This document shows positions 1 through 60,080 of a stretch of DNA of 64,000 nucleotides, in pieces. The number at the start of each line of letters is the position of its first letter. Position 1 is the stretch's first letter. The translations under genes were made by a program, and so were the position numbers. The stretch is from Cristatella mucedo. Its lineage: Eukaryota > Bryozoa > Phylactolaemata > Cristatellidae. Below the pieces are notes generated by a model. That model saw only the letters and a list, made by a program, of their open reading frames with translations. It ran no database searches and had not been told where the DNA came from. Location: contig WPIO01000001.1 of assembly GCA_009760855.2 (NCBI GenBank), forward strand, positions 2,741,001-2,805,000, in the 5' to 3' direction.

Positions 1-180
1 CGAGCCACAAAAGAATAGTGTGACGTCACTCGCGGCCCTAGGGAAGAGAGGCCAAGGTCTGGGGTCCTACCCCCACCAAGCGATGTGCCCACCTCCCTCG
101 TGGGAGGGGGCGGTGGCGGCGTGGTGCATTGTCCAATGTGACTGGCTGGCTAAGGCCAGGTTCAACCCTCCCGTTTTTAC
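1..180. other. intron sequence at left edge
   Basis: This is the sacsin-like gene beyond exon 22 in the direction of transcription. It is GC-rich (a C-rich stretch at 83-115), and no further exon of the family could be recognised. The gene continues outside the window. Confidence 0.6.
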
Positions 181-436
181 CTTTCTGGCCGTGTCCGCGT
201 GCAAGGCAACCAAAAAGGTTCGAAACGATAGGCGCAGCGAAGTCTAAACTACGAGACTGACCTATGCCTTCCAACGGCACTGCCACACCACCTGTCGGTG
301 AGAGGTCGTCGTGCGCAAGAGCCAGATTCAGTGCTTCGTTGCTGCCCATGCAGCACACGACGAGCCAGGGCACACTGGCTTCGAGCGCTCCCTCTGGCAG
401 TGGTATAAAGTGACAGCCGTCACTGGTCTGCTTGTA
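181..436 (-). CDS. sacsin-like exon 22 (SRR2), last exon in the window
   Basis: This exon has 85 full codons: [31 protein letters not shown], then [20 protein letters not shown] and [11 protein letters not shown]. 'WLV-x-x-x-MG' and 'P-x-GGVAVPL' are sacsin landmarks that precede the FCFLPL strand. The acceptor is GCGTGCAG|TACAA, phase 0 with exon 21. The donor is uncertain: AGAAAG|GTAAAA at 181 is strongest, but the last 14 residues before it do not look like the expected FCFLPLPL. A weaker donor at 211 (TTTTTG|GTTGCC) would drop them. Confidence 0.85.
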
Positions 437-3400
437 CTGCACGCGGAGGAGCAGAGACGTCTGAGGCAACGGCTGGCTCCAGCGGCCATTACGCAGAAGC
501 TACAATGACAGCGGAAAAGCTGCAGCCATCGTAGAGAAGCCGACAGATAGTTCATGCCGTACATGCCAATACTGGTCAAGGAAATATTCTCCTAATAAAT
601 ACAGGTAGCCAGATGGTTAACTCTCTGGTGGTCATGAGCTTTTTTAAGAGACAGCCGCCTCTAATCACATGATTTACATGTCGTATGTGCCTGTGCTTTC
701 GTTTATGGACGAGTGCGCATGTGCGCATAAGTGCCATCCTATGAGCATGCATGCTGAGGAGACGTTTTGTTAAACATATGTTAAACATATTACATATTGT
801 TAAACATATCTATGGTATCATATTATAGCATATGTTTCGCAGCTTTTGAAGGTGATGGCGTCAAGGTTCAGTCAACATTTGCCAACTGTAGCACACTATA
901 GCTAAGAGACTTATTTGGATATCCTAGCAACACTTTGGGCATTCTGGCTGGCAGGAACACATGCTCGGCCACTTTTACCAAGCACGAACCGGGCGTCAGC
1001 TAAAGCTGCGTTTACAAGGCCGACTTTACCACAGATTTTGGATCGATTTCCCACAGATTTAGGCTACATCATATGTCACAACATTCTGGGGAGGAGCCAA
1101 GTCTGCAGGCTCATCAGAAGGAGAATCTGTCTCAACTTTTCGGCTCCATGTTGGTTAAGCCGACCAATCAAAACCCTGGGGCTTGTCACTTACACCCCAC
1201 GACCACAATAAAAATGGCTGACGTTCGTATGTTGAGGCGGTCAGAGCAAGTCCTTGAACATGGGGTGCTTATGGATTGTAACAAATGCTTCAGCCTTTTC
1301 TACATAGAATACCCCATGCGCCAGTTCATCAAATACACCAAAAAACCTTACCGCAGCAAATTACTTAGCACTGCATGCCTGCACACCTGTAACGTCCGGG
1401 GCAGGAGCTCGAGTGCTTATATTGCATCGCAGTCCGCATTACCATTTTCGGGGTTACATAGAGCTGCTCATATTGCTTATTAATGACGACTGCATCCTAA
1501 ACAGGAGCAGAGCAGACGCGAAGACTTGCATACTGGGCTATTATAAAAGAAACATCAGGGTAAGCTAGATTTGGCACAACGAGCAACGACAAGCTTCGGC
1601 CTTGACGTCCAAGGCAGCATGCACGTCATTGTCCCAGGAACAGCCAGACCTGGGCATGTCTGGCTGTCTGTGCTGCACGCGAGGCCCCTTCCCCCACCCA
1701 CCCTCACTCCACTGCAAGCGGAGAACAAAGGATGCTGAAGTAGGGAACGTTACGGCCGAGTAGTCGGCGACCGACCCGCATACATCTGCTGCCTGCGTGT
1801 CAGCAGATGAGAGTGTGGGGACACAAGCACGTGGCACCACGAAAGAAGCCAAATGAAAGAAAGAAAGAAGAAGCGAAAGGAGTGCAAACGAGAGCTCGGC
1901 CATAGAGCAGAGCAAAAAAGCAACAACGGAAAGCCCACAAACGCCTCGAATCAGGCTCAGCAGAAAAAGCATACGTTCAAAGCGTGGCGAAGAACTAGAT
2001 CTCAGTTTTAATCTCATCGAGGAGCAGCGATCGATGCAGCCACCGAAAGGAGACTAACTAGCACAGCAGCAGACCACACCTGACACAGCCGGGCATAATT
2101 ATAGAACTGTGTTGCTCAGGTGGCAGAGGCATGCTTTCAACCACAGCTTCTTCGGCAGCAAGCCGACGAATCAGTCAGCACATGCGAAGTGCAGGAGGAG
2201 TAGAGTAAAGAGAGGCTGACCTAATTTACAGCCTCATTTACATAGCAGTAGAAGAAAGAGCCTTAAGGGCTATCACTGCTGCTTGCAATGGTGCAAATTG
2301 CTTATGATTGGATTGGCTACGATTGGTTACGGATTGCACACGACAGGACTCAAACCTCACGACCTGAGCCGTGAGGAGCAGTCACCTCACTGCTGGGCTA
2401 CGACAGGGGGCCTAATACCACGCGGGTCAATCAAGTAAGCGTGCTCGCTGTTTGCACTGACAGCATCTTTTCTCGACCGTAATTATGGGGCTACATGCAT
2501 TTGCCGGGTGTTTCAAACATCTAGTGACGTCCATGAAAGCAACATGCCACACACTAAATAGTGCTATCACTGCTTGCCATAGCTACCACGATAGCCGAGA
2601 TGCAGATTGCCTAGAGCACGTGGCTGTCTGCACTTTTCGATATGCCCCACAAGCAATCCGTCGGTTTCAGCTGCACTGTGACGTTAGTTGTAGCTACATC
2701 TCTCCTATTTGCCGAGCCGGCTATGCTAACTGGAGCTGTAATCACAGATGACACAATGCAGATCGACAAGGCCATACTGACTAACCTGCATGACACTTGC
2801 AGACGCTTTGAGGATGCTGCTCTGTTTGGTGAACTCCTGCTCGACTTCAGTCAGATCCTTCACCACCGGAGGCAGCTTCACCGGCACCGTCAGCTCGCCT
2901 GTTTTAAAGACAGGCGGTCACACTGGGGCATGTTCGCCAAAACTCAAAACAGCTCCATCTGTGCAGGCCGCCGCAAAACTATCGGAAAAGGTGTGTGCAA
3001 ACGCAGGGGGCATGCTTAAATTGGGCTTCAGCTAAAGGGACACAGCAGCTGCAAAAGCAGCAGCCTCTCAATTTTGTGAGCAAGGCTGTCTCGAGCCCGC
3101 TGGAAGCTACAGCAGCAGCAGCAGCAGCTGGGCACTGGACAATAAGGCCACACGTGCCCGCCAGCAGCAGCAACTAACACAGTGGCTGCTGCAGCTGTGG
3201 AAGCCTGTGTAGCATGACTCGCCTAGCTTGAGCTGTCAGTTCAGCTGCTTGCCAATGAGCTCCTGGTCAGCAACGACACTAGCATGCAGTTTATCTGGAA
3301 TGGGGTAGTAAACGTAGCTTCAGTTATTGGGTGACCACACGCATAATGAGCATAAGTTTAATAGATAATAATAATAATAATAATTTATGTGTATAGTGCC

Positions 3401-3564
3401 CTCAGAGAACTGAATATCTTTATAGATACCTTACAGATGCTATCAAGAAAGCACTACCAAATGACTAATAGTAACATTCGCAATGTCATCGAGCATAAAA
3501 TTGTTAGACGAACATGCACAGGATCAACGTATAGATACAGTAAGATATAAGGTAGATATATCTA

Positions 3565-3600
<36 letters not shown>

Positions 3601-3670
3601 ACGTATATATACATACAACGTATATATACATACAACGTATATATACATACAACGTATATATACATACGTC

Positions 3671-3746
<76 letters not shown>

Positions 3747-3761
3747 AGGGAGGGAGGGAGG

Positions 3762-3809
<48 letters not shown>

Positions 3810-6800
3810 TAGATGGATAGATAGATAACGCACACCAGCAGCCAAGGAGCTGACAGGGCAGAAAAAGTGTTTGCAGAAGAGAAGCTAAGAGGGTGCACCA
3901 CTTAATCAAGTAGCTAGGTTTTTCATCATCCTATCCCACATCATCCTATCCCACAGTTTCTGTTTGACTTTTAGCTTGCATGCATCTGGTTTGTGCTTCG
4001 GGCCATGTGCCATGCATTTTTTTAAAAGCTAGCAATCACTGTCTTCGTGGGCCGGATTTACTCGTGTCGGTAAGGTGTAAAGCCAAGATGGCGGCAGCAT
4101 AAAAGTGACCCCAAAGATGTTAGAGTCTTTGAACCCGGCTTGAAAGCTCGAGTGCCGAGCCTGTTGGCATATGGAGCTGCAGAGCACGATTGCTTGATGG
4201 CCGGTAGACCAGACCAATACCTCGTACTGCCTTATCGGAACAGCTAGTCTGTTTGACCTTAAGGATCTGGCATGTCGGATACGCCGTAGCAGGCTGACAT
4301 GCCAAGCTTTGAACAAAGTTAGCTAGGTATCGGGAGTCTGACCCAGCAGCGATTTTTATGAAGAGCACGAAGTGTCTGGAATTACATATTGTGTTATTTG
4401 AAAAGCATAATGAGCTAATTCAGTAATGAGATGACCGAAGCTATTGTTAAATAGTATTGTGCCAATACCACCAGCAGCTCAGTTCTGAAAACGAACAAAT
4501 ATTAACAGCTAAGTACACATACTACTACTACTACTAGCCGAGCTGGTTTGGTCTAGCGGTTGAGGTGCTCGCCCCGACCAAGGTCTGACTGAGGCCGTGG
4601 GCTCGAGCCCCGAGGCATATGTGAAGCGCCTGAATAGAGACTAAGTTCTCTTGGGGCGCTATATAAATGAATGATATGTTATGTTTACTACTACTAATAA
4701 TAATAATAAGACATTTGTTACATCACCATTAGAGAACTCAATCTCTTTCTAGACACTTTAAATTTGTTGTTAAAGGATGCATGATCGAATGGCTAGTGGT
4801 AGAATATGCTCAATCAACAACAAGAGTAACATGGTTAGAGAAGACTTGCACAAGGTCAGCATGCAGATGTTGTTAGTGGCAGCATGCACAATGTCAGCAC
4901 AGGCATAAGCACATAAAGGTCGAATCACATGGACCCACTAAATGCTGTGATACATAGGTGTTCTTAATTTCTTTTTAAATGTGGTCAAGTCACGATATGT
5001 CTTGATGCAAGTCGAAAGTGATTTACAGGCTTAAGGAGCATACAAAACGAACTAAAGGCACGGTCTCCAAAGGACTGAGGTTCGTACTAGGTATAAGTAA
5101 ACGATTAGATTCCGAAAACCAGGTGGTACCATGCTTAGCCTGGTGGGGAGTAGATCTGATAGGTAGGCTGGAACCAAGAATGATGAGACCTAAAATTAAG
5201 GAACAAAATGAAGTCGATGCATTGCTTGACTGAGAGCCAGTTCAGGTCGGCAAGAAGTGGTGTGATGTAGCAACTGCAATGCTCACGATAGACAAGCCTA
5301 GCTGCAGAACTTTGGAACAGCTGTAAGTGCCTGAGTGCACAGGCCGGTAGATCAGCAGGCAGTGAGTTACAGAAGTCAAGACGGGATGTCACAGATGCTT
5401 CGACCAATTTAGATGAGGTATCCCTGTCTCAACAAGCCCGAATTATAGCAATGCTATGTAGCTGAAAGTAGGCAGACTTGAGTGTGGAGCTGATGTGGTC
5501 GTCTAATGAAAGGTCACTTTGGAACAGGACACCTGGATTTCGTGCAGATTCAAGAGATATGCTAGAAGAGCTGATTGCAAGCAGTCAACTTTCCAATATT
5601 TGAATCACAATCGGTCTTCTCATAACTAGTAAGTTGGTGTTATCCTCTTTCAATTTAAGAAAGTTTGCTGCCATCCATGTGCAGATGTTATTAATAAGTA
5701 CATGCAGCAAGAAAGTTGGGAGAATTCGACATGCTGGAGGGCTGGGAGGGGTTAAAGCATAGGTACAACTGAGTGTCATCTGCATAAAAGTGAAAAGCCT
5801 AGATTGTGCCTGGCAATCACATCAGCAAGAGGGAGAGTATAAACCGTAAAAAGAACAGGACCAAGCACAGAGCCATGAGGTATCCCATACTTCAGAGGTT
5901 CATCGGATGATCTTTGTCCATTCACATAAATACTCTGGAGTCTCCCACTGAGATAGGATCTCAACTATTGTAATACAGTGCAGTGATGCATATAGATACA
6001 GCAAACGAGAAAGAAATGCTAAAAGTTCTCTTTTGGTCACGTTCACGATTAAGCACTAAAGGCCAGGAGCCATGCTCAGAGTGAACCATTCGAGATTGAT
6101 GACACCTTCCAGCAGCAAACTTCTGCCAGTGCAAGGTCGACTGATGCACTTCGACGAAACATCACCCTGCATGCCACTTCAGACTATGGTAACCACCAAA
6201 CATAGCCAGAGGCTCTAGTAAAGCAGGCAGATTAAAAAACCAGCCAATGAAATGGCAGGCTTCCAGTTAAGGAGCCAAAACACATACATATCATCACTGC
6301 ATCAAGTTCGGAGAGCCACTCACGTATAATTTTCATGGGTTCCTTTGTCACACTGAAGAGCTCCTTTGCATCTGCCGGCTTGCCAAATTGAGGAACATAA
6401 TGCACAGACACGGAGCGAACATTCTGTGTGAACAGTAATAGTGAACTGCAAGACCTAGCAAGAAGCTGGAACAGCTGCTTGACCTACAAGAATATGCATA
6501 TAGTAAACTGCATCAAAACAGAAAGTCTATTTATCTCTGCATACACTGCATTCACATTTCATGTAAAAGATTTTTGCAACAGCAAAATTGATCGTGTTTT
6601 AGAGCACAATTAACGGAATATACTGGCATCATCAACAATACAACCAGGACGTGAGGAGTATACGAATTCCACACAACATCCATGGGTAGGGCTCAGCATA
6701 AAGAGGCACCGAGCCGTCAAGGCCCTGTGCCAACCTAGAACAGAATAGCTTTATCTTAAGTAGACTCTGCCCACCAGAAATGATGCCACTAGACCACTAG

Positions 6801-9800
6801 TAATTCAAAGGAGTTATTTGATGTACCCATGAATGGTATAGGTAATGTTATGATGTCCTGCCACAGTGCCTTTCCAACCCTTTCAATTTAGATTGCCTGC
6901 ATTACAATATCAATGGTGACAAAAGGCTGAAATAGCAGAAGTTGGCAAATAAGATACCAAACTCATTACCAAGTATGCAATCAAGAAATCGTGACAGTTG
7001 GACCTATTCATTATTACCCGATGAGCATCCCTGCATCTGAGCCCACTTAATGCAAATGCATGTAGAAACAGCCACATAACAGCAGGATAGGATTCCTTAA
7101 GGTAGCAATTATACCTGGTCACGATCATAAGGAATATCACTTATTTCACTTCGCTTAGCTTGATCCGCAGTACGAAGTGGCAAGCGGAACAATGTTCCAT
7201 CAAAATGCATTGTTCGACCTTGTCCAGGCAAAAGTTCACAGCCGAAGATGCCATTATATGGCTTGAACTGATTTCGCAGTGTTTGCAGGGCCTTGCTATT
7301 CTTCTCAAGGTCGATCTTAATGCCTGGCTTAGTAGGATCAGTAAGGCCTCTTCCTACAACAACAATAATAATAGAATAATGACTGAAAGCAACTCAGCAG
7401 CAAGATTTTCTATCGCAGCAAATATTTCAAGTAAACTCCAAGATTCTGACATACATATAAAAGATAATCGAACTTATATGTTAACGGCTCGAAAAATTCT
7501 TAGTTCCGACTACTTACCTAAGTGAGTGGTGTGTGGATCAAAAATCACAACGTAATGCCTGCTCACAAAACTGGGGACATCGGTAAGATTGTATACGGCA
7601 TTGAAACCCAGTCCAAATCCACCAATCTTCTCAGTTTCGTGTGCCTTGCTAGCACCACTGAGTTTGATAATACTGTCAAAGTCTTTGTCAGTGAACACTG
7701 CATTATTGTATACCCACAATGCTGGGCCCTGGCATTCGCGCATACCTAAAAGCAACCATATCATTAGAGGTTAGCCAGAAGAAAATACACTAACTATGCC
7801 ACAAGCTGCAGCCATTTACAAGATAATATGAGATCTCAGATAGACAACGTAGGAAGTGGTCTCAAGAGATCACAAGTGAAAGCGCAATACAATGGCGCAT
7901 CATCACATAACTGAAATTAGAATAACAGGGATACCACGCCTCAACTTAGTACAAACTTAATTAACTCTGCTTTGATGCATTCCTAGGCTTACCGTCATCA
8001 ATCAGGCATGTAAGGGCATCCTCGTTACGACGCTCATCGTAAAGGAATTTCACATCGGTTGCCCCAGCATCGTCTGCATTCTGGATGAGTTCTTTGGGCA
8101 CAGCAAAGCCATCAGCATATTCCTGCAATCAACTTGCCAAATGATTTAAGTGGCACCGTGAAAAAAGGCCCCCCACATCATGTATGGCCACTTGGATATG
8201 CAAATTGTAATAATTTTTTAATTTAGAAAGTCTCACTGGCTACCGTGACTGAAAAATAGTGACTCCGAAGAGACCCTCCAGTGGCAATTGCTGCACATTC
8301 AGCACAGCTGAATTCAGCACTGATAATTTAATGCACACGGCGATAGACAGCGCAGCCCTTAGATAAGATGAACAGGTCGAAGCAAGCAGGTCTAAAAGTG
8401 AGTGTCATGCATCCATCATTCAAGTGAATCAATTCATCACATCAATCCACAACATGCCACTTCACTCACTGGCAACACTATGCTAAGCAGCTCAGCCACT
8501 AGAGCAAGAGCTTGGATCAGCCACGGCCAGTCTAACGACCAGCATCTGCTCATGCCATGATGCAATCTGCAGGCAAGCAGCAAGTGCCCACTAATACACA
8601 TGCAGAGATTTCGGCTAGCGTGCACGAGCCAGAGTAACACTGCCACGCACGTTGACGCTGCCACGAGTTTTCCCCTCCCACGATTTGCTCGAGCCGTGCT
8701 CACAAGCAAGTCACACGAGAGTGAGAGACAACAGAGCTCAGTGATTGTGAACACACAGCCAGTACTAAGTAGCATCTAGAGTGCCGGAAGCTTATCCAGC
8801 TACGGATAGGCGGCATAGAACTGACACTTGGAGAGGCTGATCGATGATACATACAAAAAAAGCAGCTCTGATTACCCAGTGGCTCTGCCTGTCTGCTGCT
8901 TTTGTGTCGTGGTCCTACTGCCGAGAATGCAGGTCCCTTAGCAACAAAGAAGGAGAGGCTAACTTGATTAATGGACTCATCTCTACAGAGGGAAGCGTTC
9001 TTAATGGCTTTCAATGAGCAATAATGAATTTACTTGCTACGCGACTCGAGCTCACAACCTGGTTCATGAATTGCACCAAGCCTCACAGAAAAAACCTTGT
9101 TCAGTGACCAGATTAATATACAACTGGGCATCAAAGTGACCAACTTCTAAGCTGTGTCTGCTAAAAAAGATCGTCCACTGGAGTAGGTGGATTTTGATTG
9201 TTTCTCAGTTGCTGGTCTCAGTCATCTCTAAGATGTTCCATAGGGTTTTCACCGGATAACTTGACTGGGCCAATCTGCGACGATAACAGACCAGGCATAA
9301 TACTATTTTCTGACAGGATTAAGGATTGAACTGTTATCCAGCCTAGAAAAAAAAGAGTTAGCTACTCTATGGTGATGTAGTTCCGATAAGATAAGATATA
9401 TATATATCTATCTTATAATTATTATAATGATAATATCTTATTATTATCATTAGTGTGATACTCGCACTGGTACAGACACTCTTTTAAGAACCAGCTCTCA
9501 CTGGAATTCGATAAGATACAGCTGGCGAACTGCAGATATTGCAGCCACAGTACGGTTTGATAGTTCAGTGGGTGTGAGACAGGTTGTATCAGCCACTGAC
9601 TATCTGATGTGCTTGCACTGCAGCCTAACATGTGTAGTCTGGCATGCACAAAACAGGCACAAGGCAATAAAATGCAGTGTGTCACACTAGCAGTACATTT
9701 CGTAAATGCAACGGCAGGTCGTAAATTTCGATGGCTGCACTCGGCAACATTCGGCCAACAAAATTTCCCCAAAAACATAAGATTTATTTACCAAAACACT

Positions 9801-20692: not shown

Positions 20693-20737
<45 letters not shown>

Positions 20738-29700: not shown

Positions 29701-32700
29701 CAGAAGATTGGCAAAACGGTGGCCTGCAGGTCAATAGTGGCAAAATAAAACTAAGCATCTCAGCAGCTTCCGAGTGGGCTGCCAACTGTGCACTGCTCTC
29801 CTCCAAGCGCAGGAATTGGCGCTCGTCGCCAAACCCCATTGGTGCCCCGAAGTCGTTGAGATTTCGTCTTCAATGTGTGTCGAGCGGCCGTGCTGTAAGA
29901 CCGAACCATTACTGTCGGTGCACCTTTGAAAGCTGCATGCATGCCCCTGCATACGTTAGTTGGACACTGATAACTACCTTCATCTGGCAATCATGCGTTA
30001 GCACAAGTCCAATGCCTGCCCAGATAGTCCGAAATGGCCAGCTGTGCCTCCTCGTCGCTGCACACCAACTCGACATCAAAGCTAGTCTCAGTCACATCCT
30101 GCAGCCAACTCCGCCAACCCCCCTATGAACTGGGCTAGCTCACGCATAGCTGCAAATAGCTGGAGCCGATGCTAGGAGCAGTAGTGTGTATGATTCTCCA
30201 AAATAGCAATGTTCCGGAGGCTGCTGAAACGATCTGCCAATTAGATGATGGCCTAAATTACCAGTAATAATAATAACAATAGTAAGACAGTTTAAAGTGC
30301 CCTATGAGAACTAAATCTCTTTTCGGGCACTTTAAATAACATGGTGCATAACAATGACCGTCCGTTGGCATTTTAGCAGAGAATGCAGTAACTATCTCGA
30401 AACTATGTGTCAAAAATAGGTCGCTAATGCGGTAGCACGGTTCTGCTACAGATGCTACCCAATGGCTGAGCTAGCATGCTCTGCAACCCACTGCGCCACC
30501 AGGCTGCTACACAGGCCAAGGAAGATAATAAGGTGCTAAACGAGGAGACAATGAAACCTTGTGAAGCCATGCAGGCATCTTCCTCATCTGTGCTGCTCGT
30601 CGACTGGCCTTGTTTGCCGGCTCTGCTTGAGCGCCAGCACGCCAACCGCTGCTCTGCTGGGGAGAGGGGTTTTCGCCGAAAGCTTGGAAATGGCCGAAAA
30701 GTCGAGAAATCCAGCTGTCGCGGCCCAATCCAGCCCCCTACAAGCTAAGCCATGTCTCGTCGCCCACCCGCGCCCCCCCCCCCGAGGCCTGTCACTGAGA
30801 TGAAGTCGGCGATCAAATCTCGGAAGCCATAGCATAAAGCCCTAGCGACTCGCACCCTGCCTGCCGGTACCCTAGCAGCAGCTTCTAGGCAACTCGGTGA
30901 CTAGGCAGGGAGCTCTCACCTGTCATGTGAAACACCGACTTGAAGCCCAGGCCGAATCGGCCCACCTTGGTGGGATCGTCCTTCTTGATGCTGTCACCGA
31001 GCATCTTAAGCCCATTCCAGTCGGACTCGGTGAAGTAAGCATCGTTGTACGAGTACAGTGCCGGACCCTGCATCGGACCGAAGGACCTTCCTGCAGGGGC
31101 CTGCTTGCGGCGGGCAGCTGCAGCAAGTGCGCGGCGAGTGCTGAGGACGATACAAGCAGCAGGCCATCAGCCTGTCAGTGAGCTGGAGTCGGTCATGTTT
31201 ACAACAGCCAGCCACCGGTGGGAGAGGAACAGCCTTTTGGTGGCTCCTTGCCACCCCCCCTTCAACCGATTGCAAGGGGTGCTTTGGATAGCCATGCTGA
31301 CAGACAGGTTCACTCAGGCTTCTGCGATTGGCTTCGTCAGGCATGATCAAATCGGTGCTCCCTCTTGGCCAGATCTTGGCAACTTCTATGTGTTCAGACC
31401 ACTCGCCTCGAAGGCACGGTCTCGCTACACAGACATTGTATCCTTACTGCTTCCAGAGGCTTAAAAATCAGCTTAAAAATACTAGCTGATGTAACAGCCT
31501 CATTTGTATAGCAGCACAAGAGCGTTTATCACCACTGCTTGCAGATGGCAACAAAAGGATCGCCCACAGCAGGATTCGAAACCGCGACCTTGGTCGTGAA
31601 GAGCAAGCACCTTACCTTCGCTTACTCAATCTGTCCACCAACCCCCCAACGCGCGCGAACACACGCACATACACACACACACAGAACCCAGTGTCATAAC
31701 TGACTTACCAGTAACAAAACAAAAAACAAGTGAGCAAGAAAGACGTCAGCAAGGCAACAAGAACTTTTCTCGTTATACGTCAAGGTGATGATCAAAAACA
31801 CGTCACTCACAGAGGGAATGGCCTATACAGATATTAGTGAGAGAGCTAAGGTTTAGCACAGGGAATTTTAGTGGTGCAAGCACGAAACCTGGCTCGATTG
31901 TTGACCTTGATATTCGAAGCACTTCCGGAGGTAGGCTCAGAGACAAATAAGCTTTTTTGTCTGGTAATGCTTGAAATGTAGGAACCAGGCAACACCAACA
32001 CTTTCGCAAGTGCAAGCCGAGACCCGGAAATACTGTCTTACTGTCAGTACCCATCAAAAACTCTTTGTGAACATGCTTGACATGCTACCAGCCCATGATT
32101 TTCGCAGCTAGTGCCAAACAAAAGCTTCATAATTAAATTTCTGTCCACATACACTTTTGAAAGCACTGCTGAGCTGGTTGACTTCGTCCTTGTGAAAATG
32201 CCTTGGTGTCAGGAAAGCACGCGAGAAGATGTTTCAGCTGGATTACACAGACCGTGTTAAAACAAAGCCCGGTGGAAACCAGCTTGCTTGCACAGACAGC
32301 AGCTAATGCTGAAAGTCTAAATGCTGCCATCATGTTGCGGCAATACTTGACGGCATTTTTAGTTCTCTTCTCCTGCATAAACTTAGCCAGCTCTACCATG
32401 CCAAGCTATGTAGCATCTCTGCATGCTTCTACTCATTCATGCTATGCTACTCAGAAGCCATCTGACTGAGACTTGTTCCACGGTACAGATTCATTATGCA
32501 CTCTGGAAGATATTTCCAAATCCTCTGAATAACTTTACCTGCACTTAACTTCACCAGCAACAGGGCACCGACCTGCAGTTTGGTAGCGTTCAATAGCGTT
32601 CAACTGGGCATCCATCGGACCACTCGGTGCACAAGCTCCGGTTTGGTTCTGTTTGGTTCCGGTTTGGTTTGGTTCACAAGCTTCCGGATTGGTGCTCGAT

Positions 32701-33975: not shown

Positions 33976-34045
<70 letters not shown>

Positions 34046-37000
34046 TGTGTGTGTGTGTGTGTGTGTGCGCGTGTGTGTACGTGTAAATCCAAACAGTGGC
34101 TCGGAACACCTTGTGTGATTCAAAATGTGTGAGTTGAAGTGGGGAGCCATAGCAATCGATGCTGAGTAGGTGCTGACATACAGAGCACAGCAGCGTAAAG
34201 TTCACTGCCTCAGCTAAAACCAGACCTAAGCATAGGCTGTCAGAAAGCACTTTGCACTTTTACGAGCTCTTCGGGCATCAATCCCGGAAGCATCTGCTTA
34301 TTGCAGAAATGCAGTTGTTTGCCGTGGATTGCATAACCAGCAGCAGCTCAGCCTGGGAGTAGGTCAGTTACAACTGCCATCATTATTCGCAAAGGGAAGC
34401 AAAGGAACTGGCCAACGACACAGTCATATAGTAGTATCTCTCAAGCAGCAAAAAATCTCCTGATTGCCGCTAACCTGAAACTGGGCGAGATCGGGATGCT
34501 GCAGGCAGTCCGGCCGAGCAGCGTGACTCCTTTCGTCCAGCAAGAACTTGACCTCTGTTGCCTGGGCATCTTCAGCATTCTGGATCAGCTCCTATATACG
34601 AGTGGCAAACAAAATGTGAGGCATTAACACACAGCCAATGCCTACCGCCGGTCCACTAGGACGCCAACGTGAGCTCAGTATGCACATATCTGAATCTGCG
34701 ACCGACATGAGCAGACCCTCCCCCCAAAGGGCTGTCCGCACGCGGCCTAGCCTATCCTCCATGACTGCACATGCGCGTGTACGCAAAAAGGGCGCTTGGC
34801 CCAACGTTAGGCAATGACCGGTGTCAAACAATGGCAAGCCCTAAAGCCCTGCAGCCCTAAAGACGAGCCGATGGCTAAAGCCCCCATTGAGAGCAGCACG
34901 TGCAGCCAAAGCCCCACATGCCAGGGCCCATGTGTCAGTTAAGATTAAGATCTAGATGATTAAGAGCAGTCAGACCGATTGGCTAGCAGTGTCCGAGGAC
35001 TCGAGTTCGCTTCCCAATGCCGGTACGGCGACTGCACTCTCGTTTTATTTTTCTTACTCTGTCTTGCATTGACAACTCTAGACACTTGCCGCCGACAGCT
35101 CAGCCAAGGTTCTTACGCGAGAGCGTAGCTGAAGGGGGCACCACATCATGGATAGCTGCAGGCCAGCCGTGCAAGTCTAGAACGATCAGCACACATAGGC
35201 AGAGGGAAAAGTCGTCGGCTCAATTGTGTAACAGACGTAGCCACGGCAGCCACACCCAGACAGCCGTAAGATGAGGAAGTAGTATTTCTTAATACCGTGC
35301 TGTACTGGTGATGAATCAAACGATGCTGTCATATGACATTGGCCACCAGAAATACCTCTCCACGTGCTTGGGCCTCACATCTATGGAAGAAGCGTGACTT
35401 AAACATACGACTAGTGCACATGTGACTAGTGCGTGGCAAGCCGTGTTCTGCTTACGATCCTATTCGGACTTGGCGATATTTAGCAAATCAATTCGCGCTA
35501 TTCGTAGCTGCCGGGCAGGATGGACAGCCAAAACACCTCCATCCAAGGTGGTCAACACCAGGTCAGAGCCCATGTTCACATTTTTTAGGCAGATGCTTGA
35601 CTAGAGCCTCTCACATGCCCTGGCTATACGTTCAAAGCATCGTCACTGGTGGAGCTGAGAGTCAGCAAGCCAGTTTATCAACGGTTGCGCTGACCATGTC
35701 CGTCCTACATTGAAGAATTGCAAAAAACCCACTTTAATTTAATGAAAGCCTGTACAGTGCCAGATCTGGCTCGTAAAGGGTTCGATATTGGCATTATTAT
35801 TTAAAAACCAACCAACTCCTTGTAGCACATGCTTTGTCCACATAAATCACAAATTGGCAAGTGAGAACATGCACCGTGTCAGCAAGAATATGCACACAAT
35901 AATAATTCAAAAGGAACCACTAAATGTTGTGGTAAACAGGTGCATTTTAGCTTCTTTTTTAATATCGTCAAGTCATATGTCATGCCGTCAGTCGGGAGTT
36001 GGTTCCATGCTTTAGGAGCATGCGAACTCGAGGCACGGTCTCCAAACTAGTTGAGGCTGCTAGAGGCTAAAGGTTAAACGACTTGAGCAAGAAAACAGGC
36101 AGCAAGTGAGTAGCCAGATTGGGAGTAGTTCGGCTCCATAGGCCGGGGCAAGTGAATCCTAGCCAATGGCCAACGGTCATTCGAGAGAGCTCTTAGAGTT
36201 TGGGGTACCCCAATAATCCATTTGAAATCCACTTCTTTCCACAATTTATACTGTACTCTTAGACAATGTAATCGCCAAGCACAATATAGACTTGCGTTTC
36301 CATTGAGATAGCTAACAGCTGTACCTGTGATTTGATCCTTCCCTCCACATTCTCTCAGCACCTCGACCTCTCTCAGCTTCCTCGCAGCATGAATTTGCAC
36401 TTGGATGGCAGCAAAGTATGGCGATAAAATGAATGACGATAAAACGCACAACATAGTGATGGGAGGAAATGTAGGATCACTGAGAAACTGGAAGCCAAAC
36501 CTTGGAAATAAATAGGCCTGGCCAGCACATACTGTAACATGTAGCCTGATCACGGAATGTAGGCATCCTGTTCAAAAATGACTTGTCATTTATTATATGA
36601 CAGCATCCCCTCCACATTAAAGTCTGCCAACTTTCAACTACGTAGCATAGAACAATTTCGGGCTTGCTTAGGTAAGGGTACAAGAATAAGGGTACTAAAG
36701 TCAAGCTGGTCCAAGCATTTGCGACATCTTCCTTAGACTTTTGTTTCTCACTCTTGGCAATTTCTATAACTCACTACTTGCAACTCACTGCTTTATTCTC
36801 GAATACCGGCTGTTAATACGTGTGAGAAATGGTTTGCCAAGGCGTTCCCTTGCAGGCCTTACTCTGAGTGGGTAGAGAAGGACCACTCCACTCATTGCAG
36901 AGAGTTACCATTCCTCAGCTGGAGGTTTGCCCTGCCCTCCTCGAAGCCTCGAAGGCCTATCATTCAATTTTCTACGATGGGAGCACCAGTGCCTTGGTGC

Positions 37001-38543
37001 CCCCCCCCCACAGGCTAAGCCGGTGCTTTATAAATTACCCTACAGCCTGACACCAGCATCTCCAACCGACTCATTCTCCCGAAATGATTCACTGCAGCAG
37101 TCGATAAGCTTTGACATCCGATCTTCGCCAGTCAGCAAAACTTGAGCAAGCAGCCAAGCAGCTCCCAGACTCCTAAGGCCAAGGCCAGACAAGGCTGCTG
37201 CTCAAAGAGGCCAGGCAGGCCAGCTGCACAATCAGGCTGCCCGATACAGTCATAGGAACGGTCATCGTATTGTACCGACCGGTGACCCTGGGGACGACTG
37301 CATTGTTGCCCGTCTTTGCTTAGGTATAAGGTGTTGACACTCTGATCGTGGGTAGGGGTCCTACAACAGGCAATTCTTTACTGCCCGATGCAAGCCGGGG
37401 TGATAGCTCCTAAGGCGATATAAACAAGGCAGCTGAATCAGATGACCTTAGCTTTAACTTTGGTTAACCAAGCCCTATATAAGACCCGGATTTAGCCTTG
37501 CACCAAGTAAATCAAAGAGCTATCGGCCATTAGGATTCGAATCTGAGGATCCAGAAACCGTGAATGGTGGCCACTTACTCATCGGCAAGGTTCTAGTTCT
37601 ATCTGCAGATTTGATCCTATAAGCTAGCTTGCAGTCAGGCCGGCCAGAGGGTAAAGCCATGCAGAGTAGCTACCCCTCGGCTGTCGAGCTGTGTGCAGCC
37701 ACTTTAAGGTTATTGGTAAGCTGATAAGACTTCGATTGATCACATGCAAGAATCACCCACTACTTCCATTAACCACGTGATAGGATTAAATCCATTGATT
37801 ACACGATAGAATCACATACAGTTGCAGCCTGAGCTTAAATGTAACCAGGACAATCAGCAACCTCATTTCATGAATACACGGTGATCGATGCAAGTCCACG
37901 AAAAAGGGGGTCACGTAAGACTAGCAGACAGTGCAAAGACAAATAAAATACGGAATACAATGATAAATTAAACAATATATAAAATAAATAACAAATAATA
38001 ATAAAATAATAAAATACAGAATAAAATTATGGCACCTTGGTATATGATCTGTTCGAATTGCGCTTAGTACAAAAAAATGCTATCACGATACTGCATTGAG
38101 CATCTCTTTTCACCCAAGAATCTGAGATTGACTGCATCCTCAAAGTAAACCACGACCTGCCCCTAGTCCATCGGTTTGCATAATTGACAAGAGGATATGT
38201 GTGTATGCACTAGAACAATATATTCATAAAATCCAGCAATAACTAGTTGACTTAAGAAAAATCAATGTCTACACACAGATTACGAATGCAAGCAGTCTGC
38301 ATACAGACAGGTTCTACAGTATATGTACAGACGAGCTATACAACCCACATTTTGATGTACTGAGAAGAAATCTGCTAAATAGGACTGCTGGTGATGAGCT
38401 ACTAAAATGCAGATCCGTATCACCTAGTTTAGCAACTTTTCAATGACACGGAGTTACCTTTAGAATTTGGCCGTCATCCTGATATTGGTCTAAGATGGAC
38501 TTAAGCTGCTGTATCAATGATGGCTGGACGATGCTGAACTTCC
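181..38543 (-). CDS. sacsin-like giant protein gene, 22 exons seen, partial at both ends
   Basis: The product belongs to the sacsin family: very large cytosolic proteins built of sacsin repeat regions (SRRs), each starting with an HSP90-like GHKL ATPase fold, with chaperone-type roles. I joined 22 exons on the minus strand. All 21 junctions keep the frame and give about 1,818 codons without a stop. SRR1 spans codons 1-1413 and SRR2 starts at 1414. Both carry the N-box ([18 protein letters not shown]) and the glycine motif ([20 protein letters not shown]). SRR1 also shows the [17 protein letters not shown] and [15 protein letters not shown] motifs. SRR2 leaves the window after its WLVVCCMG segment. 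The start codon and the exon before 38543 were not identified, and the 3' end lies outside. Vertebrate SACS has most of its coding sequence in one giant exon, whereas this gene is finely split. The family assignment is very secure; the orthology to SACS itself is not. Confidence 0.95.
437..2785. other. intron 21 of the sacsin-like gene
   Basis: This is a 2.3-kb intron. It holds one SINE-A copy (2221-2410) and a purine-rich patch near 1855-1890. I saw no other feature; open frames here have no family resemblance. Confidence 0.6.
2221..2410 (-). repeat. SINE-A copy 1 (tRNA-derived)
   Basis: Read on the minus strand, a tRNA-like head with a box B-like segment (GGTTTGAGTCC) is followed by a shared body and a tail ending ATGTAAATGAGGCTGT. 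It aligns end to end with five other copies in the window. This copy carries a small internal repeat of an ATTGGATTGG/ATTGGTTACGG type between head and body. Confidence 0.75.
2786..2898 (-). CDS. sacsin-like exon 21 (SRR2)
   Basis: This exon has 37 full codons, [20 protein letters not shown] then [16 protein letters not shown]. It was found by searching for an exon that fits phase 1 after exon 20: C|GC gives Arg and yields [14 protein letters not shown]. The acceptor is TTAAAACAG|GCGAG and the donor is ATGCAG|GTTAGT, phase 0. The opposite strand has a longer open frame that I treat as a shadow. The 3.4-kb intron before this exon contains the LINE, SINE-B and microsatellite. Confidence 0.8.
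3362..3535 (-). mobile_element. LINE 3' end fragment
   Basis: Read on the minus strand it ends in the family tail (AGTTCTCTGAGGGCACTATA then an ATT repeat at 3367-3387). The upstream part matches the 3' untranslated region of the fuller copies at 4687 and 43888. Confidence 0.7.
3557..3830. repeat. composite microsatellite: TA, 17-bp unit, GA and GGGA runs
   Basis: From left to right there is an alternating TA run, four copies of a 17-bp unit containing CAACGTATATATACATA (3603-3668), a second TA run, then about 105 bp of pure purine GA with a central GGGA block (3701-3805), and a GATA-type end. Open frames with IYIY or ERER runs here are translation artefacts. Confidence 0.97.
4536..4673 (+). 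repeat. SINE-B copy 1 (tRNA head, LINE-like tail)
   Basis: The head has a box A (TGGTCTAGCGGTTGAGGTGC) and a box B (GGGCTCGAGCCC) 40-odd bases apart, as in a class II tRNA with a long variable arm. The tail GAAGCGCCTGAATAGAGAC followed by GGGGCGCTATATAAATGA is the same as the end of the LINE in this window. It is flanked by a CTA repeat on the left. Confidence 0.85.
4687..5985 (-). mobile_element. 5'-truncated L2/CR1-like LINE, frameshifted reverse transcriptase
   Basis: The minus-strand frames give LRSYLSGR-type and then [18 protein letters not shown], the palm of a non-LTR reverse transcriptase. A frame change follows, then the catalytic FYADDTQLY (near 5785), and [15 protein letters not shown] with [12 protein letters not shown] near 5300-5400. 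These are hallmarks of L2/CR1-group elements. The frames are interrupted, so the copy is dead. It ends at the left in a 3' untranslated region and a TTA-type tail (4687-4708). Its 5' end is cut at about 5985, as usual for target-primed insertion. It lies in sense orientation within the intron. Confidence 0.9.
6324..6483 (-). CDS. sacsin-like exon 20 (SRR2)
   Basis: This exon has 53 full codons: [30 protein letters not shown], then [15 protein letters not shown]. 'LLF-x-x-NV-x-S-h' is the family strand after GTLFR. The acceptor is TTCTTGTAG|GTCAA. A nearer AG (TTCACACAG) would lose the conserved LLLF helix. The donor is TATAC|GTGAGT, phase 1. Confidence 0.95.
7115..7353 (-). CDS. sacsin-like exon 19 (SRR2)
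   Basis: This exon has 79 full codons: [57 protein letters not shown] and [16 protein letters not shown], the FKPY-x-x-hFGC stretch and GTLFRLPLR are strong sacsin markers. The acceptor is TTGTAG|GAAGA and the donor is GACCAG|GTATAA, phase 0. Confidence 0.97.
7518..7745 (-). CDS. sacsin-like exon 18 (SRR2 ATPase core)
   Basis: This exon has 75 full codons: [60 protein letters not shown] and VVIFDPH. It holds the GPAL-YNN signature, the GxGLGF loop and the LTD-x-PSF strand in one exon; in SRR1 an intron separates HMT from D-LPS. The acceptor is GCTTTTAG|GTATG and the donor is CTTAG|GTAAGT (consensus). Confidence 0.97.
7993..8122 (-). CDS. sacsin-like exon 17 (SRR2 ATPase N-box)
   Basis: This exon has 43 full codons: [20 protein letters not shown] then [20 protein letters not shown]. 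It is the second N-box of the gene and closer to the family consensus than SRR1. The acceptor is GATTGCAG|GAATA and the donor is TGACG|GTAAGC. Confidence 0.97.
8123..10949. other. intron 16 of the sacsin-like gene
   Basis: This 2.8-kb intron shows no coding segment or SINE. The only structured element is the AT-rich palindromic patch at 9388-9455. An A run of 12 lies at 10751-10762. Confidence 0.6.
9388..9455. repeat. AT-rich palindromic patch
   Basis: Segments such as GATAAGATATAT and ATATCTATCTTAT are complementary, and AATGATAATA is followed by TATTATCATT. This gives two adjacent potential hairpins in about 70 bp. Confidence 0.7.
10950..11034 (-). CDS. sacsin-like exon 16 (start of SRR2)
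   Basis: This exon has 28 full codons, [20 protein letters not shown] then RRLRNLLQ. 'FGQ-x-E-x-LT-x-R-h-x-x-hL' is the linker that begins a further SRR, so the protein has at least two. A nearer AG at TAATGCAG would break the frame, so the acceptor used is TTTCTAG|AATGC. The donor is CTTCAG|GTAATT, phase 0. Confidence 0.93.
11035..12186. other. intron 15 of the sacsin-like gene
   Basis: This 1.15-kb intron separates SRR1 from SRR2. Apart from SINE-A copy 2 (11846-11990), nothing is recognisable. Confidence 0.6.
11846..11990 (-). repeat. SINE-A copy 2
   Basis: Read on the minus strand it has the head TAGCCCAAGGGTAAGGTGC (box A-like), a box B-like GGCTTCGAGCCC, the shared body, and the tail CTGCTGCTATATAAATGAGG. 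It is a nearly complete copy of about 145 bp and the best single reference for the family here. Confidence 0.8.
12187..12387 (-). CDS. sacsin-like exon 15 (SRR1 C-terminal motif)
   Basis: This exon has 66 full codons: [29 protein letters not shown], then [20 protein letters not shown] and PSLVNR. This is the classical SRR end block 'LVP-x-x-C-x-YC-[DE]-x-x-WL' followed by 'hVHP-x-x-x-x-x-h-A-x-x-LGvPSL'. The first Cys of the block is replaced by Ala here. The acceptor is TTGTTCAG|GCTTC and the donor is AACAG|GTTAGT, phase 2. Confidence 0.95.
12388..13326. other. intron 14 of the sacsin-like gene
   Basis: This 0.94-kb intron shows no recognisable element. Its 5' boundary is the possible GC donor of exon 14. 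Confidence 0.5.
13327..13477 (-). CDS. sacsin-like exon 14 (SRR1), possible GC donor
   Basis: This exon has 49 full codons: [20 protein letters not shown], then [15 protein letters not shown]. The 'vL-x-x-hKdKY' helix is typical of SRRs. The acceptor is CGTTGCAG|ACATT. No good GT donor keeps phase with exon 15. The best in-phase site is GCGAG|GCACGT, a GC-AG intron, giving [10 protein letters not shown]. An alternative GT donor 16 bases further on (TGCTC|GTGCTG) also keeps phase and adds HVYCS. The left boundary is therefore uncertain. Confidence 0.8.
13478..14964. other. intron 13 of the sacsin-like gene
   Basis: This 1.5-kb intron has a short GT microsatellite (13565-13581) and a GCAT repeat (14863-14880). 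Nothing else was recognised. Confidence 0.6.
14965..15142 (-). CDS. sacsin-like exon 13 (SRR1 W-x-W motif)
   Basis: This exon has 59 full codons beginning [20 protein letters not shown], the 'W-h-W-x-G-x-GF' hallmark of the SRR C-terminal half. [19 protein letters not shown] follows, then [10 protein letters not shown]. The acceptor is CACTTGCAG|GTCAT and the donor is GCTGG|GTAAAT. It continues into exon 14 with a split Asp. Confidence 0.95.
15255..15357 (-). CDS. sacsin-like exon 12 (SRR1)
   Basis: This short exon of 34 full codons ([20 protein letters not shown] then [13 protein letters not shown]) is a helix preceding the W-x-W motif. The acceptor is TTTGCAG|GTCAA and the donor is CATCAG|GTTTGC, phase 0. 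It is supported chiefly by frame continuity on both sides. Confidence 0.88.
15358..16989. other. intron 11 of the sacsin-like gene
   Basis: This 1.6-kb AT-rich intron is most extreme at 16625-16735 (mainly T and A with TATATATTA blocks). A CAATTGCTT-type direct repeat occurs at 16180-16225. A degenerate LINE or SINE tail (GTAAAGCACCTGG with AGGGTGCTATACCAAA) lies near 16484-16545. Confidence 0.6.
16990..17203 (-). CDS. sacsin-like exon 11 (SRR1)
   Basis: This exon has 70 full codons: [21 protein letters not shown], then [20 protein letters not shown] and KNVVTGY. Sacsins show the order 'GYP-x-x-LPWY', 'VGS-x-x-P' and 'FGW' at this point. The acceptor is CCTCACAG|GGTAT and the donor is CTACAG|GTTACC, phase 2. 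Strong family match. Confidence 0.95.
17607..17831 (-). CDS. sacsin-like exon 10 (SRR1)
   Basis: This exon has 74 full codons: [20 protein letters not shown], a helix [11 protein letters not shown], and [19 protein letters not shown]. The segment 'W-x-P-x-x-x-PPPGYP' spanning exons 10-11 is typical of SRRs. The acceptor is TTTTTGCAG|GGCTC and the donor is CTCCCG|GTAGGT. The exon-exon Gly codon is G|GG. Confidence 0.93.
18014..18379 (-). CDS. sacsin-like exon 9 (SRR1)
   Basis: This exon has 121 full codons. Landmarks are [20 protein letters not shown], a helix [19 protein letters not shown], then [13 protein letters not shown] and [19 protein letters not shown]. The last matches the sacsin 'lP-h-x-DG, P-s-x-hFDP' block. 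The acceptor is CTTGCAG|ACGTT and the donor is GCTAG|GTAAGT (consensus). It joins exon 8 with a split Asp codon. Confidence 0.95.
18380..19827. other. intron 8 of the sacsin-like gene
   Basis: This 1.45-kb intron has two poly-C runs (about 18991-19000 and 19777-19790). No mobile element was recognised. Confidence 0.6.
19828..20097 (-). CDS. sacsin-like exon 8 (SRR1)
   Basis: This exon has 89 full codons: [20 protein letters not shown], then [14 protein letters not shown], then [13 protein letters not shown]. The 'LPIF'-type strand after a charged helix is a recurring SRR landmark. The acceptor is TACTGCAG|GCATC and the donor is TGCTCG|GTGAGT. A trinucleotide-free run of ten or more C bases lies just outside the donor side at about 19780-19793. 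Confidence 0.92.
20572..20755. repeat. TA-rich compound microsatellite
   Basis: Imperfect TA, TATG and ACAT tracts end in a TGTGTG block. Low-complexity tyrosine/isoleucine open frames across it are artefacts. Confidence 0.95.
21850..21972 (-). repeat. repeat C copy 3
   Basis: The reverse complement matches the copies at 43548 and 50563. Shared blocks include TGTAACTCCACAAAGTCAT, CATGTGGGTGTTA and GCCTAAGCGGCTTTCGGTA. No coding potential. Confidence 0.8.
22502..22668 (-). CDS. sacsin-like exon 7 (SRR1)
   Basis: This exon has 55 full codons including [19 protein letters not shown] and [19 protein letters not shown]. The acceptor is TTTGCAG|CGATC and the donor is ACAAG|GTATCT, phase 1. The split codon AG|C gives Ser at the exon 6-7 junction. 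The segment matches the variable part of an SRR between the PLLP motif and the DEK-rich motif of exon 8. Confidence 0.85.
22669..23113. other. intron 6, with short AT-rich and CAAGTTGC direct repeats
   Basis: A cluster of ATTCA/TGCAA words lies at 22740-22810, and four variants of an 8-9 bp word (CAAGTTGCT, CCAGGTTGCC) lie at 22918-22952. A TAAGA-type repeat lies close to the donor side (23040-23101). No exon was seen. Confidence 0.6.
23114..23330 (-). CDS. sacsin-like exon 6 (SRR1)
   Basis: This exon has 71 full codons, [20 protein letters not shown] to [10 protein letters not shown]. It is predominantly helical in character and includes the segment [12 protein letters not shown]. The acceptor is TTTTGCAG|GAAAAG and the donor is CGGAG|GTGAGT, a near-consensus site. 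Both split codons complete properly with exons 5 and 7. It is assigned to SRR1 by position and frame more than by motif. Confidence 0.88.
23543..23734 (-). CDS. sacsin-like exon 5 (SRR1)
   Basis: This exon has 63 full codons starting [14 protein letters not shown], matching the sacsin 'PLLP-x-x-DGTF' segment, then [13 protein letters not shown] and LKFLAYK. The acceptor is GTTTTTAG|GCGTG. The donor is read as AAGA|GTGCGT because only this site keeps phase with exon 6, giving Lys-Arg-Lys-Ala across the junction. Without splicing the frame stops a few codons later. Confidence 0.9.
24010..25617 (-). CDS. sacsin-like exon 4, giant GC-rich exon (SRR1 middle)
   Basis: At 1,608 bp this is by far the longest exon. 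It opens [20 protein letters not shown], then shows [11 protein letters not shown], a long low-complexity insert with Gly, Pro and Ala runs ([21 protein letters not shown]), then [12 protein letters not shown] and [16 protein letters not shown], and ends DEQYDDLWG. These are the canonical successive motifs of one SRR. The acceptor is CGTCGTAG|ATTTG and the donor is TGTGGG|GTAGGG (phase 1). Base composition is markedly GC-rich and CpG-rich, unlike every other exon and the flanking introns. Reading frames on the opposite strand here are by-products of that composition. Confidence 0.95.
27690..27775 (-). repeat. repeat C copy 4, degenerate
   Basis: The reverse complement retains the block around TCTCTGTAACTC and the GTGCTATA-type block of the family in the right order. 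It is shorter and more diverged than the others. Confidence 0.5.
30263..30355 (-). mobile_element. LINE 3' end fragment
   Basis: On the minus strand, AAGTGCCCGAAAAGAGATTT then AGTTCTCATAGGGCACTTTA precedes a TTATTATTATTA tail, the family's 3' end. Confidence 0.75.
30920..31067 (-). CDS. sacsin-like exon 3 (SRR1 ATPase glycine motif)
   Basis: This exon has 49 codons from [14 protein letters not shown] to [15 protein letters not shown]. It carries the sacsin signature GPAL-x-x-YND and the glycine-rich GxGLGF nucleotide-binding loop. The acceptor is GATGCAG|GGTCCG and the donor is GACAG|GTGAGA. It ends in phase 1, and the split codon completes as Asp in exon 4 ([12 protein letters not shown]). 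Confidence 0.95.
31489..31630 (-). repeat. SINE-A copy 3
   Basis: On the minus strand it has a box B-like GGTTTCGAATCC, the shared body, and the tail GCTATACAAATGAGGCTGT. It is full length and diverged. Confidence 0.78.
32791..32872. repeat. 9-bp tandem array of AGATATCAG
   Basis: Roughly nine copies of AGATATCAG are present. Each contains the palindrome GATATC, so the array is a string of EcoRV-type palindromes. The adjoining frame (ISEISE) is an artefact. Confidence 0.95.
33176..33300 (-). repeat. SINE-A copy 4, box B deleted
   Basis: It has the family tail (TATATAAATGAGGCTGT on the minus strand) and the head (TAGCCCAGAGGTAATGTGC), but the box B stretch between them is missing. It is followed by a G run. 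Confidence 0.7.
33921..34083. repeat. GT microsatellite, imperfect, about 160 bp
   Basis: Alternating GT is interrupted by GC and AC steps. It is purine-pyrimidine alternating throughout, hence Z-DNA prone. The VCVC and THTH frames are artefacts. Confidence 0.97.
34475..34591 (-). CDS. sacsin-like exon 2 (SRR1 ATPase N-box)
   Basis: This exon has 39 codons beginning [20 protein letters not shown]. The E-x3-N core is the GHKL N-box that binds Mg-ATP in HSP90-type domains. Its boundaries are acceptor ATATAG|GAG and donor TTTCAG|GTTAGC, both phase 0. It joins exon 3 as [14 protein letters not shown], the usual order in sacsin ATPase domains. Confidence 0.95.
34592..38457. other. intron 1 (of those seen) of the sacsin-like gene
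   Basis: This 3.9-kb intron has a LINE fragment at 35775-36200 and an AT-rich AATAAAATA stretch at 37940-38030. A tRNA-like box B word (GATTCGAATCTG) lies at 37532-37543 without a convincing SINE around it. Nothing else was recognised. Confidence 0.6.
35775..36200 (-). mobile_element. LINE fragment (3' untranslated region and ORF end)
   Basis: It aligns with the copy at 4687-5985: the ACTAAATGTTGTGGTAAACA block, GCACGGTCTCCAAA, and the segment just after it are shared in the same order on the minus strand. It is truncated and diverged. Confidence 0.7.
38458..38543 (-). CDS. sacsin-like exon 1 of those seen (SRR1 start)
   Basis: This exon encodes 28 residues, from [13 protein letters not shown] to DDGQILK, the pre-ATPase helix that opens an SRR (family pattern: PSL, then IL, then a run ending QILK). 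The acceptor is a T-rich tract plus CTGTAG and the donor is AAAG|GTAACT. It starts with two bases (GG) of a split codon, so the upstream exon must end in phase 1. It reads directly into exon 2 as QILK-ELIQNA, as in the family. The first coding exon must lie further right. Confidence 0.85.
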
Positions 38544-46720: not shown

Positions 46721-46821
<101 letters not shown>

Positions 46822-59501: not shown

Positions 59502-60080
59502 AAGTGCCTGGAGCTAGCCGAATGCACCATGCTTTGCTGCAGAAGTGCTTGGAGCTAGCCGAATGCACCATGCTTTAATACGGAAGTGCTAGGAGCTAGC
59601 CGAATGTACCGTGCTTTGCTGCAGAAGTGCTAGGAGCTAGCCGAATGCACCATGCTTTAATACGGAAGTGCTCGGCGCTAGCCGAATGCACCCTGCTTTA
59701 AGCAGGAAGTGCTAGAAGATAGCCGAATGTACTGAACAATGCTGCTTCGGGGTGCACGAAAATGGCAGAATGCACTATGCATTGCAGCTGTATTGCCAGG
59801 AGCTAGCGAAATGCACTAGAAACTACTGCAGCATTGCTGCATGGGTTCTCAGAGCTAACCCACTGAATTTCGCATCGCAGCTAAATTGCATGGAGCTAGC
59901 CGAATGGACCAAGCCTCGGAGGAGAAATGCTCGTAGCTTGCTGAATGCTCCATGAATTGCTGCAGAAGTGCTCTGAGCAACTTATATGTATCGCGAATCG
60001 CTGCAGAAATGCTCGGCATTGGCCGAATGGGCAAGGCATCGCAGTAGAAGGGTTCGGATATAGCCGAATGCAAAATACGT
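59502..60080. repeat. 41-bp minisatellite, about 14 units
   Basis: The first six units (59502, 59543, 59583, 59623, 59664 and 59706) are 40-42 bp long and contain GGAGCTAGCCGAATGCACC and ATGCTTT. Units further right are increasingly diverged but keep AGCTAGCCGAATG and TGCAGAAGTGCT words. Some units alternate between a CTGCAGAAGTGC and an AATACGGAAGTGC variant. Confidence 0.93.

Follow-up and report, generated by a model that had tools for sequence, protein, structure and literature searches.

Does the left part of this window (the 64,000-nucleotide stretch analysed here, C111:2741001-2805000 in an assembly of 572 Mb and 688 contigs) belong to a true sacsin gene, how far does that gene extend, and is its division into many exons out of the ordinary? 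An initial annotation had described a sacsin-like gene between positions 181 and 38543, finely split into 22 exons with about 1,818 codons, and had treated both its contrast with vertebrate SACS and the agreement of its intron phases as significant. The gene is best read, with a probability of about 0.95, as a full orthologue of sacsin (SACS, an ataxia gene in human) in a protostome-type invertebrate, spliced from about 70 predicted exons, intact-looking and probably functional; the left 38 kb contain its first third. It adds a further member to a known gene family and is ordinary apart from the question of how its introns evolved.

Extent and predicted exons of the gene

The sacsin gene, for which the initial annotation named no strand, is encoded on the minus strand, such that its 5' end lies to the right and its 3' end to the left of the window. 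Exons were chained by our own program on the basis of generic splice-site matrices, codon scores and phase. The finder enforces phase agreement and open frames and allows only GT-AG and GC-AG introns; it was run without the exon list of the initial annotation, although the two end coordinates were known beforehand. The final run, confined to 38700 and leftwards, followed retraining and gave bonuses to exon edges of the first repeat (38543 received its bonus only once two runs had picked that edge unaided). It produced one minus-strand chain of 78 exons that begins at 38543 and reaches a stop at window coordinate -60632 (C111:2680368), 60.6 kb beyond the left window edge. Four predicted exons (30682-30558, 29005-28909, 26937-26876 and 26468-26360) were dropped as contradicted by homology, since the alignment to lizard sacsin joins 30920 directly to 25617. 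The remaining 74 exons comprise 15,722 nt, and the predicted gene spans ~99 kb with roughly 70 exons.

After this removal, the share of the chain in the window is 23 exons and 5,607 nt, or 1,869 codons. The many-exon chain described earlier is therefore upheld, with slightly different counts, but "finely split" suits the number of exons better than their sizes, which are uneven (one exon is 1.6 kb). Both end points were recovered: edge 181 was reached in three finder runs and edge 38543 in three, with one other run giving 38508. The start exon of the gene was not found, the upstream right flank included, so that 38543 is the edge of the first identified exon only. A wider run added three weak exons further right (41295-41174, 40917-40834 and 39038-38868), which are left out of the count. 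The exons inside the window, all on the minus strand, are as follows.

38458..38543, minus: exon, start of SRR1 sr1, first identified exon (lizard sacsin alignment; three finder runs, 38508 in another)
34475..34591, minus: exon, ATP-site helix ELIQNAEDA of SRR1 (finder, Pfam SACS, lizard sacsin alignment)
30920..31067, minus: exon, glycine loop GRFGLGF of SRR1 (finder, with start 31117 in two runs; Pfam SACS, lizard sacsin alignment)
24010..25617, minus: 1,608-nt exon, rest of SRR1 sr1 plus middle (sr2-type) region and beyond (homology; 3' edge predicted only)
23543..23734, minus: predicted exon, SRR1 (coding score and splice sites only)
23114..23330, minus: predicted exon, SRR1 (coding score and splice sites; one BLAST match, E 0.04, at a non-matching place, uncounted)
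22502..22668, minus: predicted exon, SRR1 (coding score and splice sites only)
19828..20097, minus: predicted exon, SRR1 (coding score 29.8; BLAST match, E 0.001, to nearby exon 17831-17607, uncounted)
18014..18379, minus: predicted exon, SRR1 (coding score 24.2; weak match to SRR3 exon, E 0.002)
17607..17831, minus: predicted exon, SRR1, start 17831 or 17942 (finder; BLAST match to 20097-19828, E 0.001, uncounted)
16990..17203, minus: predicted exon, SRR1, low confidence (finder; end at 16868 in one run)
15255..15357, minus: predicted exon, low confidence (two finder runs)
14965..15142, minus: predicted exon, by position the sr3-type segment of SRR1, start 15142 or 15078 (matches SRR2, SRR3 and paralogue exons)
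13327..13477, minus: predicted exon (two finder runs)
12187..12387, minus: predicted exon, end of SRR1 (coding score 23.1)
10950..11034, minus: exon, start of SRR2 (finder, profile and structure homology)
7993..8122, minus: exon, ATP-site helix ELIQNADDA of SRR2 (finder and homology, including Pfam SACS on the genome)
7518..7745, minus: exon, glycine loop GGFGLGF of SRR2 (matched by Pfam SACS at 1.2e-32 in the raw genome; profile and structure homology of the spliced piece)
7115..7353, minus: exon, rest of SRR2 sr1 (Pfam SACS, on the genome and on the spliced piece)
6288..6483, minus: predicted exon, SRR2, 5' edge 6483 or 6423 (finder; weak match to SRR3 exon, E 0.007)
2786..2898, minus: predicted exon, SRR2 (coding score 16.6)
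1443..1496, minus: predicted exon, low confidence (two finder runs)
181..499, minus: predicted exon, SRR2, 5' edge 499 or 436 (finder; gene runs on leftwards)

Homology backs 11 of these 23 exons (8 strongly, 3 weakly); the remaining 12 are predicted from coding score, splice sites and phase alone, several with low confidence. The largest predicted exon, 24010..25617, has its 5' edge at 25636 in two finder runs. Exon 14965..15142 matches an SRR2 exon (1e-5), an SRR3 exon (6e-5) and a paralogue exon (1e-5). By eye, exon 12187..12387 looks like the one that directly precedes SRR3, a pair for which BLAST gave no match at E 0.05.

The chain over the 38-kb stretch scores 580.7 on the minus strand versus 203.1 on the plus strand, and 10 dinucleotide shuffles of the same stretch score 0 to 12.5. 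Over the 61 kb that adjoin the window on its left, the scores are 924.2 (minus) versus 193.6 (plus). The plus-strand score of 203.1 is presumably a shadow cast for the most part by the GC-rich 1.6-kb exon. A plus-strand reading of 24-26 kb was rejected, its open frames overlapping the minus-strand frame that matches sacsin. Chain scores flatter the gene and carry little weight, because the codon model was trained on the same gene and because phase and open frames are forced. Likewise, phase agreement is no independent evidence of a live gene, as any chain built under the phase rule has it. The decisive evidence for the predicted gene is provided by the homology tests, not by the chain scores.

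The surroundings yielded observations of their own. LIM-domain exons are found at window 59017-61044 on the minus strand (Pfam LIM E-values: 1.2e-10 and 4.7e-9; the FHL2/3-type N-terminal LIM profile is below cut-off), with a third LIM place near 70.4-70.6 kb in window coordinates, seen by eye only. These exons probably belong to an FHL-like gene located upstream of the sacsin gene on the same strand. The window also has a tandem array at 59502-59732 (41-bp unit, 5.6 copies, with higher-order periods of 82 and 123 bp) and TG dinucleotide runs of ~50 copies each at 46723-46819 and 33972-34078. Elsewhere in the assembly, COX1 on C688, the likely mitochondrial contig, stays open when AGA codes for serine, ATA for methionine and AAA for lysine, which is the invertebrate mitochondrial code (table 5) and points to a protostome; the sites used for this reading are presumably conserved places. 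COX1-like pieces on other contigs (C166:4375626-4376390, C83:3121-3735, C549 and C299) are probably nuclear copies of mitochondrial DNA.

Sacsin repeats, terminal domains and a one-repeat paralogue

On the minus strand, a frame of 617 residues at 25690-23840, the longest in the region, has the conserved domain Pfam SACS (E-value: 2.8e-23). Its PDB matches up to E 1 are four sacsin sequences only, the best being 5v47 (3.9e-32). When the genome was searched with the Pfam SACS profile, at least 12 matches were found among the best candidates. In the window, these lie at ~34.6, 31.0 and 25.4 kb (first repeat) and at 8.1, 7.6 and 7.2 kb (second repeat). Elsewhere, among the same best candidates, there are three pieces 12-13 kb left of the window (third repeat) and three pieces on C331. 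Once spliced, SRR1, SRR2 and SRR3 (the last outside the window) match Pfam SACS with E-values of 1.1e-73, 8.3e-72 and 1.6e-75, respectively, the SRR2 match coming from four joined exons. The four joined exons of SRR1 encode a 243-residue domain of which positions 3-241 align to lizard sacsin 5v47 (E-value: 9.7e-76), gap-free at all three splice junctions, and three further sacsin chains in PDB match SRR1 with E-values of 1.7e-72 to 2.2e-71. The earlier assignment of the left 38 kb to a sacsin-like gene in which one SRR is complete and a second partial is thus borne out: the joined exons fall in the sacsin family, SRR1 is whole and SRR2 is cut by the left edge. Extension to the left adds the end of SRR2, SRR3 and then the J and HEPN domains, for three SRRs in all.

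The best scores against vertebrate sacsin structures, a comparison limited to vertebrate repeat 1, are 257.9 bits for SRR1, 145.8 for SRR2 and 129.9 for SRR3. That SRR1 is much closer to the vertebrate first repeat than are SRR2 and SRR3 fits conserved repeat order and orthology. The invariant ATP-site residues of sr1 are tabulated in Table 1 of PMC9880540. Compared with that table by eye, each of SRR1, SRR2 and SRR3 has ELxxNxxDA, GxxGxGF and, ahead of FRxPLR, the Thr; the ATP-site residues in question are E, L, N, D and A, the three G, F and T. The likely catalytic-arginine loop of the middle domain, also placed by eye, has an Arg in each repeat (SNRH, SNRR and EARR; human R474, R1839 and R2893). 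A search of a phage collection with window 24201-25700 gave no match.

The repeats are followed by a J domain and a C-terminal HEPN domain, for which the exons of the C-terminal piece were trimmed by eye. The J domain is most similar to PDB 1iur (KIAA0730; E-value: 4.4e-8), which we take to be human sacsin, and has HPDK; Pfam DnaJ is absent from the matches of the J piece at E 1. The HEPN domain is most similar to sacsin 3o10 (E-value: 5.6e-11) and has the conserved domain Pfam HEPN (E-value: 1.4e-13). At the place that best fits the HEPN RNase motif, Rx4-6H (PMC3710099), this domain reads R-x5-D by eye. The predicted domain order, three SRRs followed by J and HEPN, is the same as that given for human sacsin in PMC9880540 and PMC3629688.

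No ubiquitin-like exon was found upstream in a search that could miss a split, diverged domain and in a fetched flank that partly reads N: plain ubiquitin against 671 minus-strand frames gave a best E-value of 0.64, ~40 kb away. When Pfam ubiquitin was run on the genome, the sole C111 match among the 84 best candidates was at 20.5 Mb. This result fits Table 1 of PMC3710099, in which the ubiquitin-like fusion is listed as a vertebrate feature.

A second sacsin-family gene, also split into many exons, is located on the plus strand of C331 (C331:2170291-2213485; loci L018-L021 and L027). This paralogue has one SACS domain (2.8e-27 against sacsin structures), and its repeat is closest to SRR3 of the window gene (63% and 54% over two exons). 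One of its exons is 1,730 nt long. A J-like exon matches Pfam DnaJ at 0.0053, below cut-off, and a candidate HEPN-like exon (2212967-2213485) matches 3o10 at 0.00026 and Pfam HEPN at 0.14, the latter below cut-off; the finder chain stops at 2205108, short of this exon.

Exon-intron architecture and its evolution

The initial annotation stressed that this gene differs greatly in architecture from vertebrate SACS. The contrast is real. The vertebrate gene has a giant exon of 12,794 bp, with eight coding exons upstream of it in human (PMC3629688), and this exon has been called the longest among vertebrates (PMC8745260); among the 74 exons predicted here there is no giant last exon of this kind, the largest being 1,608 nt. 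The present gene is not the odd one. Its median exon is 199.5 nt, its median intron is 999 nt (range 103-5,302) and its intron phases 0/1/2 are 33/25/15. Such exon sizes, intron sizes and phases are the usual animal pattern. On general knowledge, the split structure is ordinary and it is the vertebrate giant-exon form that is exceptional. For both sacsin genes together, 90 of 93 introns are GT-AG and 3 are GC-AG, the finder allowing no others. As a separate observation, G is favoured before CAG at the splice acceptors, TGCAG closing 30 of the 93 predicted introns.

Intron positions were compared among the repeats and the paralogue. Those in SRR1 lie at T|D (phase 1), K|E and Q|G (phase 0). In the aligned sr1/ATPase domain, no intron position is shared among SRR1, SRR2 and SRR3. 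The comparison yielded five coincidences within two columns. The convincing one is exact and is shared by SRR3 and the C331 paralogue (TGQY/TGQF|G, phase 1), such that at least one intron predates the paralogue. SRR1 and SRR3 coincide at one column in phase 2, in low-confidence, weakly aligned exons outside the ATPase domain (7 identities in 25 columns). The other three coincidences were rejected as common introns, their phases being different. As for the remaining predicted introns, their gain or loss postdates the repeats, unless poor alignment conceals shared positions.

A stronger form of the earlier view, that this gene has an unusual, newly split architecture of its own, draws on the exon-poor relatives seen in the literature, namely vertebrate SACS with its giant exon and a sacsin-like gene of Acropora that has three exons (PMC8626496; the only statement on exon number of a non-vertebrate sacsin in the literature surveyed). 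It is also favoured by the absence of sr1 introns shared among the three repeats, with one common to SRR3 and the paralogue. Yet the paralogue is split too, the exon and intron sizes and phases are those generally known as usual in animals, and losses of introns in the vertebrate and coral lineages account for the contrast equally well where one genome is compared, as here; this form of the view is doubtful. We consider it unlikely, too, that the ancestral sacsin was exon-poor and that dozens of introns were gained in both genes here, later than the origin of the repeats and, for the most part, later than that of the paralogue. If true, intron gain would account for the near-absence of common introns among the repeats and for the single clear one between SRR3 and the paralogue.

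An introner origin of the introns was rejected. In an all-against-all comparison, intron matches are internal, and among the 45 of 118 matches listed none runs from splice site to splice site. Several introns of both sacsin genes share internal, retroelement-like stretches: long ones, LINE-like by look, reach 1.3 kb at 76%, and shorter ones of ~120-190 bp match at 71-94%, some of them SINE-like by look. The repeat-bearing introns include 6287-2899, 38457-34592 and 34474-31068, with others left of the window.

Identity and proposed function

Two other explanations concern the gene as a whole. Open frames and phase agreement are imposed by the search and some predicted exons are weak, so a decaying sacsin pseudogene might have yielded exons that chain by luck of the search rule. 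This is hardly credible given the good matches of three ATPase repeats, J and HEPN across many exons and the retention of the ATP residues. It is likewise highly improbable, if a shade less so, that two or more tandem sacsin-like genes have been wrongly joined, one ending near SRR2 and the other containing SRR3, J and HEPN. Prediction alone links the exons between the repeats and those from SRR3 to J and HEPN, but the domain order is that of human sacsin, and a single chain to the same stop was kept at gene penalties of 12, 30 and 60 bits. In addition, the three segments measure 1,414, 1,186 and 1,830 residues (within limits set by us and with false exons included), the second being the shortest, as in human (PMC3629688). 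A single sacsin orthologue is thus the preferred reading. It is probably live, as its exons are open (a demand of the finder), the ATP-site residues are present in three repeats, and five domains that match relatives stand in the right order. The initial annotation was therefore probably right about a live gene, for reasons other than phase.

The proposed function follows from the known family. A pre-mRNA of ~99 kb would be spliced from roughly 70 ordinary predicted exons. The product would be a giant co-chaperone in which each repeat may bind and hydrolyse ATP like Hsp90, the J domain would recruit and stimulate Hsp70, and HEPN could form an end module that binds nucleotides or RNA or that dimerises. 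Such a protein may help to handle misfolded or filament proteins under stress.

Like vertebrate sacsin (SIRPT1-3, J, HEPN), the predicted protein has three Hsp90-like repeats, J and HEPN in the same order and the ATP-site residues. It differs in that no ubiquitin-like domain was found, and the gene has ~70 predicted exons rather than eight coding exons and one of 12,794 bp (PMC3629688). The Acropora sacsin-like gene shares Hsp90-like, J and HEPN domains and has no ubiquitin domain, but PMC8626496 names one Hsp90-like domain and three exons; in this make-up it is nearer to the one-SRR paralogue on C331 than to the window gene. The same multi-domain family includes the HEPN-bearing sacsins of animals and slime moulds (PMC3710099), and sacsin is named as expanded in littorinid snails (PMC11423352).

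A complete sacsin, with three repeats followed by J and HEPN, thus appears to be present in a protostome-type animal. Being rich in introns, the gene allows the origin of the SACS giant exon to be tested as a case of intron loss or gain. Given the conserved repeat order, with SRR1 nearest to the vertebrate first repeat, the triplication of the SRR probably predates the split from vertebrates.
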